Source of the DNA: Saccharomonospora piscinae
GTDB lineage: Bacteria > Actinomycetota > Actinomycetes > Mycobacteriales > Pseudonocardiaceae
Direction of reading: 5' to 3'
DNA: 64,000 nucleotides
NCBI RefSeq assembly: GCF_005862235.1
Contig: NZ_VCEK01000003.1
Coordinates: 199-64,198 of the forward strand
In this document: positions 20,533 to 56,137 of the stretch, piece after piece
Numbering within the stretch: the stretch's first letter is position 1
Layout: each line of letters begins with the position of its first letter
Notes under the pieces: model-generated
Told to the model about the DNA's origin: nothing
Databases searched by the model: none
The model's input: only the letters and a program-made list of their open reading frames with translations
Program-made: the position numbers and the translations under genes

Positions 20533-20587
20533 CGGGGACACGACTACGCAGCCTGCGGACACGACTACGTGGGCTGCGGACACGGCG
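20533..20587 (-). repeat. 21-bp intergenic repeat array A (2 full copies plus partial)
   Basis: Read on the minus strand, this holds two full units of GTGTCCGCAG-N5-GTAGTC (N5 = CCCAC, GCTGC) and a degenerate third. It fills the whole 56-bp gap between the convergent stops of the glycosidase gene and the second thiD. Confidence 0.8.
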
Positions 20588-21427
20588 TCAGTCGGCCGGG
20601 GCGGGGGAGTCGGGAGCGAGTCGCCAGAACGGGGACACGGGCCCGACTCCCTGGCCCAGCGGGTAGGACTCGGCCACGCACCGCTCGATGAACCGCTTGC
20701 CCACCGACACGGCGTCGGGCACGCCGAGGCCCTTGGCCAGGTGCGCGGTGACCGCCGAGGCGAGCGTGTCGCCACCGCCGTGCGTGTGCGGCGTGTCGTA
20801 CCGGCGTCCCTCCAGTTCGACCACGTGCGTGCCGTCGGAGAGCAGGTCCACGCACCGGGTGCTGCCCGCGAGATGCCCACCCTTGACGAGCACCCACTGT
20901 GGACCGAAGGCCAGCAGCGCCTCGGCCGCCTCCCGCTGCCCCGCCTCCTCGGTGACGGAGATTCCGGTGAGCAGCCGCACCTCGTCGAGGTTCGGAGTCA
21001 CCACCGTGGCCCTGGGCAGGAGTTCGGTGCGGATCGCCTCCAGCGCCTCCTCGCGCAGCAGCGGGTCGCCGTGCATCGACGCGGCGACGGGATCGACCAC
21101 GAACGGGACGCGGCGCCCCCGGCCGATGCCGACGGCGTCCACGGTGGCGGCGACGGTCGCGATGATCTCAGCCGTGGCGAGCATGCCGGTCTTCGCCGCG
21201 TTCACACCCATGTCGCCGGCCACGGTTTCGATCTGCGCCGCCACCACGTCGGCGGGGATCTCCGTGAACCCGTGGACACCCACGGAGTTCTGCACGGTCA
21301 CCGCCGTGAGTGCCGTGAGCCCGTGAACGCCGCAGGCGAAGAACGTCCGCAGGTCCGCCTGGATGCCCGCGCCGCCGCCCGAGTCGGACCCGGCGATCGT
21401 CAACGCCGTCTTGGGTGTCTCCGTCAT
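20588..21427 (-). CDS. thiD: HMP/HMP-P kinase, second copy
   Basis: A 279-aa ThiD closely similar to the one at 18348-19181: ALTIAGSDSGGGAGIQADL, DPVAASMHGDPL, VTPNLDEVRLLTG and the anion hole DTPHTHGGGDTLASAV. It overlaps thiC by one base (TGATG), so thiC-thiD form one operon under the minus-strand TPP riboswitch. This is the copy expected to serve de novo thiamin synthesis; the other may serve salvage or a related cofactor. Confidence 0.92.
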   Translation of the reverse strand: MTETPKTALTIAGSDSGGGAGIQADLRTFFACGVHGLTALTAVTVQNSVGVHGFTEIPADVVAAQIETVAGDMGVNAAKTGMLATAEIIATVAATVDAVGIGRGRRVPFVVDPVAASMHGDPLLREEALEAIRTELLPRATVVTPNLDEVRLLTGISVTEEAGQREAAEALLAFGPQWVLVKGGHLAGSTRCVDLLSDGTHVVELEGRRYDTPHTHGGGDTLASAVTAHLAKGLGVPDAVSVGKRFIERCVAESYPLGQGVGPVSPFWRLAPDSPAPAD

Positions 21428-23064
21428 CACTCCACCACCGGCAGGTACACCTGGCCGCCGCGCTCGGTGAACTCGCGCGACTTCTCCCGCATACCCTCCT
21501 CGATGGCCGTCATGCTGGTGAGCCCGTGTTCCTCGGCGTAGGCGCGCACGTCCTGGGTGATGCGCATCGAGCAGAACTTGGGCCCGCACATCGAGCAGAA
21601 GTGCGCCGTCTTGGCCGCCTCGGCGGGCAGCGTCTCGTCGTGGAACGCCCGCGCGGTGTCCGGGTCGAGGGAGAGCGCGAACTGGTCGTGCCAGCGGAAC
21701 TCGAAGCGAGCCGTGGACAGCGCGTCGTCCCACTCCTGCGCGTAGGGGTGACCCTTCGCGAGGTCGGCAGCGTGGGCGGCGATCTTGTAGGTGATGACGC
21801 CGGTCTTGACGTCGTCACGGTCGGGCAGTCCGAGGTGCTCCTTCGGTGTCACGTAACAGAGCATCGCCGTGCCGTACCAGCCGATCTGGGCCGCGCCGAT
21901 GGCCGAGGTGATGTGGTCGTAGGCGGGCGCGATGTCGGTGGCCAGCGGCCCGAGGGTGTAGAACGGGGCCTCGCCGCAGAGCCGTTCCTCCAGCTCCACG
22001 TTCTCCTTGATCTTGTGCATGGGCACGTGGCCGGGCCCTTCGACCATCACCTGCACGTCGTGCTGCCTGGCGAGGTGAGTCAGCTCGCCCAGTGTCTCCA
22101 GCTCGGCGAACTGGGCGCGGTCGTTGGCGTCGGCGATCGAGCCGGGCCGCAGGCCGTCGCCGAGCGAGAACGTCACGTCGTAGGAGCGCAGGATCTCGCA
22201 CAGCTCCTCGAAGTGCGTGTACAGGAACGACTCGGTGTGGTGCGCCAGGCACCATGCCGCCATGATCGATCCGCCCCGCGAGACGATGCCGGTGACCCGG
22301 CGGGCCGTGAGCGGGACGTAGCGCAGCAACACTCCCGCGTGGACGGTCATGTAGTCGACACCCTGCTCACACTGCTCGATCACGGTGTCGCGGTAGACCT
22401 CCCACGACAATCTCGCAGGATCGCCGCCGACCTTTTCGAGCGCCTGGTAGATCGGCACGGTGCCCACGGGCACGGGCGAGTTGCGCAGCAGCCACTCCCT
22501 GGTCTCGTGGATCCGCCGTCCCGTGGAGAGGTCCATGATGGTGTCGGCGCCCCAACGGGTTGCCCACACCATCTTGTCGACTTCTTCCTCCACAGAGGAC
22601 CAGACTGCGGAGTTTCCCATGTTGGCGTTGACCTTCACGAGGAAGTTCTTGCCGATGATCATCGGTTCCGTCTCGGGATGGGCGCGGTTGGCGGGAATGA
22701 CCGCCCGGCCGAGGGCCACCTCCGAGCGGACGAACTCCGGGTCGACGCGCTCCCGTGCGGCCACGAACTCCATCTCGCGGGTGACCACACCTGCCTTCGC
22801 CCAGCCGAGCTGGGTGTCGTGCTTCCGGTCGGCGAGCCAGGGCTCCCGGATCGGTGTCAGTCCGCTGTGGACGTCTATTGTGGCGTTCGGATCGGTGTAG
22901 GGGCCGGAGGTGTCGTAGACGTCGAAGTGCTCGCCGTTCGACAGGTCGATGCGGCGGGCCGGAACCCGCAGCCCCGAGCCGGTGACGTGGTGGACCTTGC
23001 GCGATCCCGTGATGGGGCCGGTGGTGATGCTGGGCCGAACCTCGGCGCCGTCCGTGGCCGTCAA
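21427..23064 (-). CDS. thiC: Phosphomethylpyrimidine synthase ThiC
   Basis: A 545-aa radical-SAM enzyme that rearranges AIR to HMP phosphate. The C-terminal cluster motif is [12 protein letters not shown] (C-x2-C-x4-C), and [25 protein letters not shown] is the conserved core, given here only as [14 protein letters not shown]. The start is a TTG at 23064, the first codon of [15 protein letters not shown]; it follows the TPP riboswitch closely. Requires a [4Fe-4S] cluster. Cytoplasmic. Confidence 0.95.
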
Positions 23065-23072
23065 GAAATCTC

Positions 23073-23176
23073 ACTCCCTACGCTGGCATTACCCAGTCAG
23101 GTTCCTGCGGTCGGCGGCACCGGGTCCGGACACGGACACCAGCCGCCCTCTCAGCCCGCCAAGGCGCGAGCTCCCG
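23073..23176 (-). promoter_or_regulatory. TPP riboswitch upstream of thiC-thiD
   Basis: On the minus strand the THI elements read GGGAGCTCG...GGGCTGAGAGGGCGG near the 5' side and AACCTGACTGGGTAATGCCA then GCGTAGGGAGT near the thiC start, with a GC-rich variable P3 hairpin (GTCCGTGTCCGGAC) between. It should switch off thiC-thiD when TPP is abundant. Confidence 0.93.
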
Positions 23177-23224
23177 CGACTTTTCACGTTGTCCCGTCGA
23201 CCATGCCACGCGGAGGGGCTCGAC

Positions 23225-54969: not shown

Positions 54970-55000
54970 TTGACCTCGACAGGATTGACCTGACTAATAG
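54970..55000 (+). promoter_or_regulatory. Putative promoter of the second, partial conservon
   Basis: TTGACC at 54970-54975, a 17-base spacer and ACTAAT at 54993-54998 (or TAATAG at 54995-55000 with 19 bases) precede the roadblock gene by about 40 bases. A second TTGACC at 54985-54990 is too close to these -10 candidates to serve. Confidence 0.45.
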
Positions 55001-55037
55001 TCTTGCCGCGACAGCGTGCGGGAGGCTAGGAGGGACA

Positions 55038-55457
55038 GTGACCGCATCAGCCCAGCAGGGCAGCTTCGGCTGGCTGGTCACCGATTTCGTGCGCCGGGTT
55101 CCGGGGGCGGCGCACGCGGTGGTCGTGTCGGCCGACGGGCTTCTGCTCGCGAGCTCGCAGGGGTTGCCCACGGAACGGGCCGAGCAACTGTCCGCCGTGG
55201 CGTCGGGCCTCGTGTCCCTCACCCACGGCGCCGCGAAGTGCTTCGACGGCGGCACGGTGAACCAGACCGTGGTCGAGATGGAGCACGGTTACCTCTTCCT
55301 CATGTCGATCAGCGACGGCTCCTGCCTCGCCGTGCTCGCCGCTCCCTCGGCGGACATCGGGACGGTGGCGTACGAGATGACGCTGCTCGTCGACCGGGTC
55401 GGCCAGCAGCTCACCCCCGAGCTGCGGGCCCAGCTCCAGGGCGGCGGCCGTGGCTGA
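55038..55457 (+). CDS. Roadblock/LC7-domain protein, second conservon
   Basis: A 139-aa roadblock domain, a near copy of the cvnB product at 53042-53500 ([41 protein letters not shown]). The GTG start has AGGAGGG upstream. It overlaps the following DUF742 gene by eight bases. No kinase or GTPase belongs to this second set, so it may share CvnA and CvnD of the first. Confidence 0.88.
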
Positions 55458-56049
55458 CGAGCCGGACGAGTGGGCCGCCCTCAACGCGCCGAGCGATCGC
55501 GAGGGCGTCGACCTGCCGAGCAGGTTCGACCTGAGCAGCGTCTCCGGCGTGACCCAGCTGGCGAAGCGAGTGCGCCAGCAGTCGCCGCCGCCCGCCCACC
55601 CCGGACCCGTGGGGCGGGCGCCCGCGGGGCACGGGGCGCCGCGACCGGGACCGGGCGCGCAACCGGCGCCCGCCCCGCCGCGCACGGCGCCCGCGCCACC
55701 GCACTTCACCCATCGGTCGCTGGTGCGGCCCTACGCGCGTACGGGTGGTCGTACCCGCCCCGCGAAGGAGCTGGCGCTGGAGGCGCTGGTCGTCACCACC
55801 GACAGCGGTCGCCGCTACGAGGGAGTGGCCTCGCCGGAACAGCGCTTCATCTGCGACCTGTGTGTGGACGTGCACTCGGTCGCCGAGATCGCGGCGTTCG
55901 CCCGGCTGCCGCTCGGTGTGGTGAAGGTGCTGGTCGACGACCTGTCCGAGACCCGGGCGGTGGACATCCGGCGGCCGGGCTTCGTGCTCGCCGACCGCGA
56001 CTCCCACGACTTCATGGAACGCATTTTGGACGGCCTCCGAGCCCTCTGA
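55450..56049 (+). CDS. DUF742 protein, second conservon
   Basis: A 199-aa protein. A Pro/Ala/Gly-rich N-terminal half (about residues 35-85) leads to a DUF742 domain: [39 protein letters not shown] and [13 protein letters not shown]. It is paralogous to the cvnC product. The roadblock-DUF742 pair ends here without a cvnD, and repeat array D follows. Confidence 0.87.
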
Positions 56050-56053
56050 CACC

Positions 56054-56137
56054 GTGTCCGCAGCCCACGTAGCCGTGTCCGCAGGCTGCGTAGTCGTGTC
56101 CGCAGCTCGCGTAGCCGTGTCCGCGGTTCGCGTCGCT
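56054..56137 (+). repeat. 21-bp intergenic repeat array D (4 copies)
   Basis: Four head-to-tail units; the first three fit GTGTCCGCAG-N5-GTAGYC (N5 = CCCAC, GCTGC, CTCGC) and the fourth is slightly decayed. It fills most of the 99-bp gap between the convergent DUF742 and helicase-associated genes. Confidence 0.87.

Follow-up and report, generated by a model that had tools for sequence, protein, structure and literature searches.

Rows of a 21-bp repeat unit behind genes of Saccharomonospora piscinae keep place, orientation and pitch while the unit itself changes between lineages

Eukaryotic satellite DNA has binding proteins that co-evolve with it. Among bacterial repeats, the closest described systems are repetitive extragenic palindromes (REPs) and the bacterial interspersed mosaic elements (BIMEs) that they compose. 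According to PMC3733652, REPs are extragenic, occur in hundreds of copies, lie behind genes and between convergent or co-directional genes, and include GTAG and CGTC super-families; BIMEs are described in PMC2817692 as regularly spaced REPs in alternating orientation. Here we analyze a family of dispersed 21-bp tandem repeats found in a 64,000-nucleotide stretch of the Saccharomonospora piscinae genome (contig NZ_VCEK01000003.1, positions 199 to 64,198; hereafter the window). Rows of these units keep their place, orientation and pitch while the unit is replaced genome-wide, lineage by lineage. We tentatively read the rows as docking sites for a putative DNA-binding protein that would insulate gene ends.

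The S. piscinae genome (4.9 Mb in 11 contigs, with the window in contig C5) contains 464 units with at most one mismatch to the pattern GTGTCCGCAG-N5-GTAG, 233 forward and 231 reverse, against two matches to the reversed control pattern. Within the window, 17 units have at most two mismatches, compared with a mean of 0.80 and a maximum of 5 in 100 dinucleotide-preserving shuffles, and TRF recovers the same four arrays with a period of 21. An earlier note on this DNA had proposed a whole-genome search and had held that rarity elsewhere would speak against its proposal; the genomic copy number removes that objection.

To describe array anatomy and placement, we used a sample of 1.264 Mb (25.8% of the genome) that holds 49 clusters, 33 of them with three or four good units. 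Conservation along the unit was derived from 146 register-matched neighbours of exact units, with 56 others excluded because they fell outside arrays. The modal base has a frequency of 0.91-0.99 at positions 1-9, 0.99 at position 16 and 0.97 at position 19, followed by positions 17, 18, 20 and 21 (0.73-0.82) and positions 10-15 (0.45-0.77). The central five bases, which the earlier note took to vary between nearly invariant flanks, are not free: a pyrimidine occupies position 12 in 162 of 166 units and position 13 in 161.

The spacing of the units is also regular. Among 228 pairs of exact core boxes, GTGTCCGC, lying on the same strand within 130 bp of each other, 225 are separated by a multiple of 21, and the three exceptions (79, 100 and 121) represent one 5-bp shift measured against three units. 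The same holds for 38 of 38 pairs in G024, for 60 of 64 in relatives whose units end in GYAC and for 40 of 40 in genus g21. Consecutive exact cores of S. piscinae up to 50 bp apart stand at 21 or 42 bp in all 121 cases, even though 116 adjacent pairs of exact-core units differ by 447 substitutions over the 13 other bases (about 3.9 per pair; 13 pairs are identical); in four relatives, 30 of 31 distances keep the spacing across 144 substitutions in 28 adjacent pairs. Where rows meet head to head, the cores fall at 18+21n in 61 of 61 pairs in S. piscinae and 19 of 19 in G024. In S. piscinae the 18 corresponds to a 26-bp palindrome near GTGTCCGCAYCG-NN-CGRTGCGGACAC. The sample has 13 matches to a loose pattern for it, and similar junctions occur in stretches of G024 and G020. 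A minisatellite produced by simple slippage was rejected because variation is uneven across the unit, the same unit recurs at many gene ends and the spacing stays fixed despite the 447 substitutions. Constraint on a site, which the earlier note had preferred to slippage, agrees with the retention of positions 1-9, 16 and 19 and with the 121 core distances.

In the window, array 1 (20534..20583, minus strand) comprises two full 21-bp units and one degraded core. It occupies the gap in which a phosphodiester-glycosidase-domain gene (19023-20531, plus) and a phosphomethylpyrimidine-kinase-domain gene (20588-21733, minus) converge. Array 2 (36612..36758, plus) has seven units, the last with two mismatches, and lies behind a groEL-type gene (34912-36546, plus), 65 bp past its stop codon. 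It directly follows a hairpin (36573..36611, plus), a perfect-looking inverted repeat read from the sequence between the groEL stop and the array; a similar hairpin precedes the groEL-side rows in relatives too. Array 3 (38546..38629, minus; four units, pattern search) is oriented antisense to an M14-peptidase-domain gene (36841-38541, plus) upstream of it and is followed by a DJ-1/PfpI gene (38668-39270, plus). Array 4 (56054..56137, plus; four units by pattern search, the last with two mismatches) fills the gap where a DUF742 gene (55450-56049, plus) and a helicase-C-domain gene (56149-58425, minus) converge. A stop codon stands 2-6 bp away from each of arrays 1, 3 and 4. A single decayed unit at 49301..49321 (plus) retains an intact GTGTCCGC core. 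The earlier note had already located these arrays and the decayed unit, placed two arrays in convergent gaps and reported both orientations, all of which our analysis reproduces. A separate 69-bp tandem repeat at 47237-47394 (2.3 copies, 96% match) is unrelated to the 21-bp unit.

Comparison with four relatives (76-92% DNA identity over alignable blocks, mostly about 80%) revealed that arrays 2 and 3 occupy the same place in the same orientation in all four, and array 4 in three, being absent in G090. No row of at least two cores stands at the place matching array 1 in any of the four, the gap being read directly only in G062. At array 2, the number of core-bearing units across the five species is 7, 2, 4, 2 and 5, and relatives possess arrays that the window lacks, for example, near window position 30100 in G111 and G090.

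The tail of the unit behaves differently from the box. Among exact-core units, 15 of 16 in the window arrays carry GTAG at positions 16-19, but none of the 32 in the orthologous arrays does, and 24 of these have GTAC or GCAC. Exact GTAG units are numerous in three of 12 genus genomes (S. piscinae 337, G024 68, G173 107), and any such unit occurs in only 10 of 297 family genomes, the other seven having one each. Of the two constant blocks that the earlier note had described, GTGTCCGC is common to the four compared relatives and GTAG is lineage-specific. Its proposed refutation, that the constant bases vary freely in other strains, holds by half: relatives do have other bases in place of GTAG, but the change is a switch across the whole genome rather than free variation. 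GTAG was also considered as the mark of a single clade and set aside, as a groEL tree places S. piscinae outside a seven-row group holding both GTAG and GYAC genomes. The tail is GTAG in S. piscinae and in viridis/G173 and differs among the genomes next to them, a distribution that suggests more than one change of the tail; this tree, of one gene with seven of 21 forks open, is only a lead.

Further unit classes extend this pattern, and every one of the 12 genus genomes has one unit version or another. Box pairs of the form GTGTCCGC-N13-GTGTCCGC number 109-338 in eight of them. The four without such pairs carry CCGCGAGT-N13-CCGCGAGT 113-229 times, a pair absent from seven of the other eight and present twice in G128, which has an in-between unit, GTGTCCGCGAGTTGCGCACTC. 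Behind groEL, 21-bp rows of the CCGCGAGT-type unit stand in G160, G185 and G207, and none stands there in G196. Beyond the genus, GTGTCCGC pairs occur in G009 (154), G020 (128), G058 (41), G028 (32) and G146 (7), the rest of the 297 family genomes having 0-3. In genus g33, GTGTTGCG-N13-GTGTTGCG appears 60-334 times in six of seven genomes (0 in G164) and at most once in 13 others searched. Among 140 family genomes, GTGTYSGC pairs number 117, 51 and 34 in G086, G125 and G055 of g17 (one each in two other g17 genomes), 50 in G092 (g26) and 285 in G009 (g10); outside these genera and g1, g21 and g28, the counts are 0-14. In G086, loci L226-L228 hold arrays of the unit GTGTTGGCCG with mixed 21- and 22-bp spacing, a less strict pitch. 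All seven GTGTCCGC pairs of G146 lie in one 2.6-kb place (L150 9383-12009) among metabolic-type genes, perhaps a transferred piece. A mobilising gene between these arrays was considered and dropped, the translations, judged by eye without a family search, showing metabolic-type genes.

The strongest non-coding repeat lag is 21 in stretches of S. piscinae, G024, the four relatives, g21, g17, g26 and g10, most stretches having been chosen for known arrays, so that the counts are not genome averages. In stretches of G160 and G207 the strongest lag is not 21. In ten pooled other genera lag 21 leads weakly, with a count of 187 where the median lag has 49, and its clearest row is one G033 array. Outside the family, no more than two GTGTCCGC pairs occur in 245 genomes from the rest of the class, and at most 23 very loose GTGTYSSS pairs in 196 others, against 371 in S. 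piscinae. Among the genomes sampled beyond the family, GTGT-headed pairs do not rise above background; 21-bp rows of unrelated units were not sought there. Among the matches listed, L034 (Clostridia) was by eye a repeat within coding-like sequence and was set aside.

To define placement relative to genes, we called genes with our own codon-usage caller, whose starts are approximate and a few of whose calls may be wrong. The sample contains 45 clusters of at least two good units, of which 43 could be placed in gaps; of the other two, one is at a contig end and one falls within a called gene. A stop codon is no more than 20 bp away from 32 of the 43 arrays, a number reached in none of 3,000 random placements under either of two null models, one weighted by gap length (mean 3.3, largest 11) and one giving each gap one chance (mean 12.2, largest 24). 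Arrays start most often 4 bp from the stop (10 of 38 arrays with a stop side), and in three cases (G000 C3:115916, C3:171567 and C3:485187) the row reaches the coding end and the TAG of the repeat unit is the stop codon of the called gene.

Gap type is also biased. Convergent gaps hold 15 arrays, against null means of 5.8 and 4.4, a count reached in one and none of the 3,000 placements, respectively; in a smaller run, the largest of 500 random placements was 17. Divergent gaps hold five arrays, against means of 14.5 and 15.1, with counts as low in one of 3,000 placements for each null. The arrays in tandem gaps are 18 plus 5 of the 43, and tandem-gap rows are sense in 11 cases, antisense in eight and both in four. 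The location of arrays directly behind stops, together with their avoidance of divergent gaps, points to a likely effect at transcript ends. The mixture of orientations in tandem gaps and the retention of antisense array 3 in all four relatives argue for a signal in double-stranded DNA rather than in RNA. A replication-polar signal was rejected on the near-equal genomic strand counts, and over 880 kb of contig C3, where the sign of GC skew switches near 330 kb, arrays showed no clear bias (few arrays, coarse bins, no statistical test). Forward and reverse box pairs number 72/111 in G024, 85/131 in G062 and 166/172 in S. piscinae; pairs within an array are not independent, and the difference may mean nothing.

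A near-invariant box, a two-turn pitch, tolerance of either orientation and a variable centre would together fit a double-strand DNA binder that forms rows. We therefore favour, as a possible but tentative explanation, rows that serve as docking sites for a putative protein on every GTGTCCGC box and that are predicted to insulate gene ends from read-through. The protein would read the box as double-stranded DNA, and bound copies, two helical turns (21 bp) apart, could line up on one face of the DNA and join. A bound row is predicted to stop or slow RNA polymerase from either side, two-strand arrays would additionally form a strong RNA hairpin, and lineage switches of the unit may follow a binder with changed specificity. 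Among the roles guessed in the earlier note, a site for a DNA-binding or nucleoid protein fits best, with the binder itself only putative.

Several observations weigh against this docking interpretation. The hairpin ahead of array 2 may itself end the groEL transcript, and two-strand arrays do fold as RNA. The register at which opposed rows meet varies across species: in the GYAC relatives, only 11 of 23 listed head-to-head pairs fall at 18+21n and nine at 7+21n, and g21 shows several registers. The g17 genome G086 mixes 21- and 22-bp spacing, and the exact-core spacing test misses insertions and deletions that destroy a core. Fixed spacing is also expected of arrays that expand from founders through exchange of whole units, as are genome-wide uniform units under gene conversion.

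These last two points lead to the strongest rival, neutral concerted evolution, which we consider conceivable but doubtful. Units would have spread to gene ends as satellite-like DNA, been homogenised by unequal exchange and gene conversion, and been tolerated behind stops without function. Such a history would explain why species differ in the number of copies at a given site, as at array 2, and lineage-specific units are its expected product; the restriction of array 1 to S. piscinae among five genomes and the three units that supply a stop codon are also in keeping with it. It accounts less well for the very uneven variation over the unit, for a period that stays at 21 while clade sequences change, for place and orientation conserved at about 20% divergence, and for a placement bias that is strong even among gene-end spaces.

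An unlikely alternative is a BIME-like topology element, in which rows, bound by DNA gyrase or some nucleoid protein, would absorb supercoiling between converging transcription units. Convergent enrichment, divergent depletion and the two-turn pitch all suit such a role, and passages of PMC2817692 and PMC1525189 provide precedent in the gyrase binding of Escherichia coli BIME-2 repeats and the location of REPs between convergent genes, respectively. However, more than half of the placed arrays lie in tandem gaps, and a universal enzyme is not obviously in need of a lineage-changing unit.

We regard as rather improbable an RNA 3′-end element, with transcribed arrays acting as terminators or protectors of mRNA ends, although the position of arrays directly behind stop codons favours it. 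Of the 45 sampled arrays, 30 are one-strand and 15 are two-strand, with opposed rows that meet. All 15 two-strand arrays have folding z-scores below -2 and are much more stably folded than their shuffles (the mean z is about -8.5 for both strands), and the 18 gene ends that carry them have a median best 36-nt hairpin of -24.6 kcal/mol, against -14.1 at 28 one-strand-array ends, -18.1 at 92 array-free convergent ends and -15.6 at 305 array-free tandem ends. One-strand arrays, in contrast, resemble ordinary 3′ ends: mean z is -1.2 on the unit strand (nine below -2) and -1.7 on the other (11 below -2), compared with -1.2 (17 below -2) for 60 control 3′ ends, and energy per base is weaker (-0.32 and -0.34 against -0.43). 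Downstream of one-strand arrays, the median best hairpin is -14.5 kcal/mol at the 14 of 28 ends with room. The folding of one-strand arrays thus speaks against RNA structure as a function shared by all arrays, as do the lack of clear sense bias and the conserved antisense array 3. RNA structure may be one function of two-strand arrays, and the guess of a terminator in the earlier note is possible there, a hairpin terminator being unsupported for one-strand arrays. At gathering thresholds, Rfam gave no match at the window arrays; its sole match in the window was a TPP riboswitch (15550-15663, plus), which exceeds the gathering score.

REP-like repeats moved by a tyrosine (Y1) transposase are very improbable and mostly refuted: the GTAG of the S. 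piscinae unit, the tag of one REP super-family in PMC3733652, and the restriction of array 1 to this species speak for them, but most relatives' units lack GTAG, nearly all GTAG-first units lack a perfect stem longer than 4 bp, and the full-length Y1_Tnp match of S. piscinae stands next to an OrfB_IS605 gene.

Beyond the local reading, the family-wide pattern raises the possibility, doubtful as it is, of a DNA address system of Pseudonocardiaceae, in which an oligomerising protein would coat helically phased boxes behind stop codons, and binder and box would co-evolve fast enough for lineages to rewrite their boxes while places, orientation and the 21-bp pitch are kept. If a protein does read the box, this would constitute a new chromosome-organising or transcription-insulating system. 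The unit classes (GTAG, GYAC, CCGCGAGT, GTGTTGCG and GTGTTSGC) would then be a ready-made experiment on joint change of binder and site, and a source of insulator parts for high-GC hosts.

How do the rows compare with described elements? Among the papers listed from the open-licence literature of PubMed Central, judged by titles and the starts of abstracts and with subscription journals outside its scope, we found no description of a 21-bp element of this kind, and the words saccharomonospora, actinobacter and streptomyces are absent from the main text of PMC3733652. Like the REPs of that source, the 21-bp units are extragenic, occur in hundreds of copies (464) and lie mostly behind genes (32 of 43 arrays), and the S. 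piscinae unit carries GTAG. Unlike them, the units are non-palindromic, form strict head-to-tail rows at 21 bp and have their GTAG replaced in relatives. The longest perfect stem is at most 4 bp in 47 of 48 GTAG-first units and 5 bp in one; with G-U and interrupted pairs counted, RNAfold forms at least five pairs in 28 of the 48 (median -3.4 kcal/mol). As for a REP-associated tyrosine transposase (RAYT), Y1_Tnp matches occur in four of 12 genus genomes, and the array-bearing G024 and G173 have none. The full-length match in S. piscinae adjoins a divergent OrfB_IS605 gene (G000 C4:158635-160296); the two make up an IS200/IS605-type element, with an array some 2 kb away. No dedicated transposase or RAYT was found for the arrays, a second, partial Y1_Tnp match of this genome on C7 not having been looked into. 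Without the palindrome and the RAYT, the arrays are not filed as REPs, and of the mobile repeat guessed in the earlier note, only array gain is seen (array 1, against four relatives).

BIMEs share with the arrays the clustering of units at 3′ ends, and in two-strand arrays opposed units flank a palindrome at the centre; alternating orientation, however, is not the rule here, as 30 of 45 sampled arrays have a single orientation. Intrinsic terminators share the place behind stops and, in two-strand arrays, strong hairpins, but one-strand arrays fold like ordinary 3′ ends or more weakly, and both orientations relative to the gene occur. The dispersed bacterial repeats compared are palindromes, often tied to transposases; in the present family, pitch, place and a short box are kept, and the remaining bases of the unit are replaced lineage by lineage, in some clades together with the box. 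This retention of a period while sequence changes genome-wide between related species recalls eukaryotic satellite DNA, from which the rows differ in being small (mostly three or four units), scattered behind many genes, and bacterial. An address system of the kind outlined above would be the bacterial counterpart of a satellite DNA chasing its binding protein.

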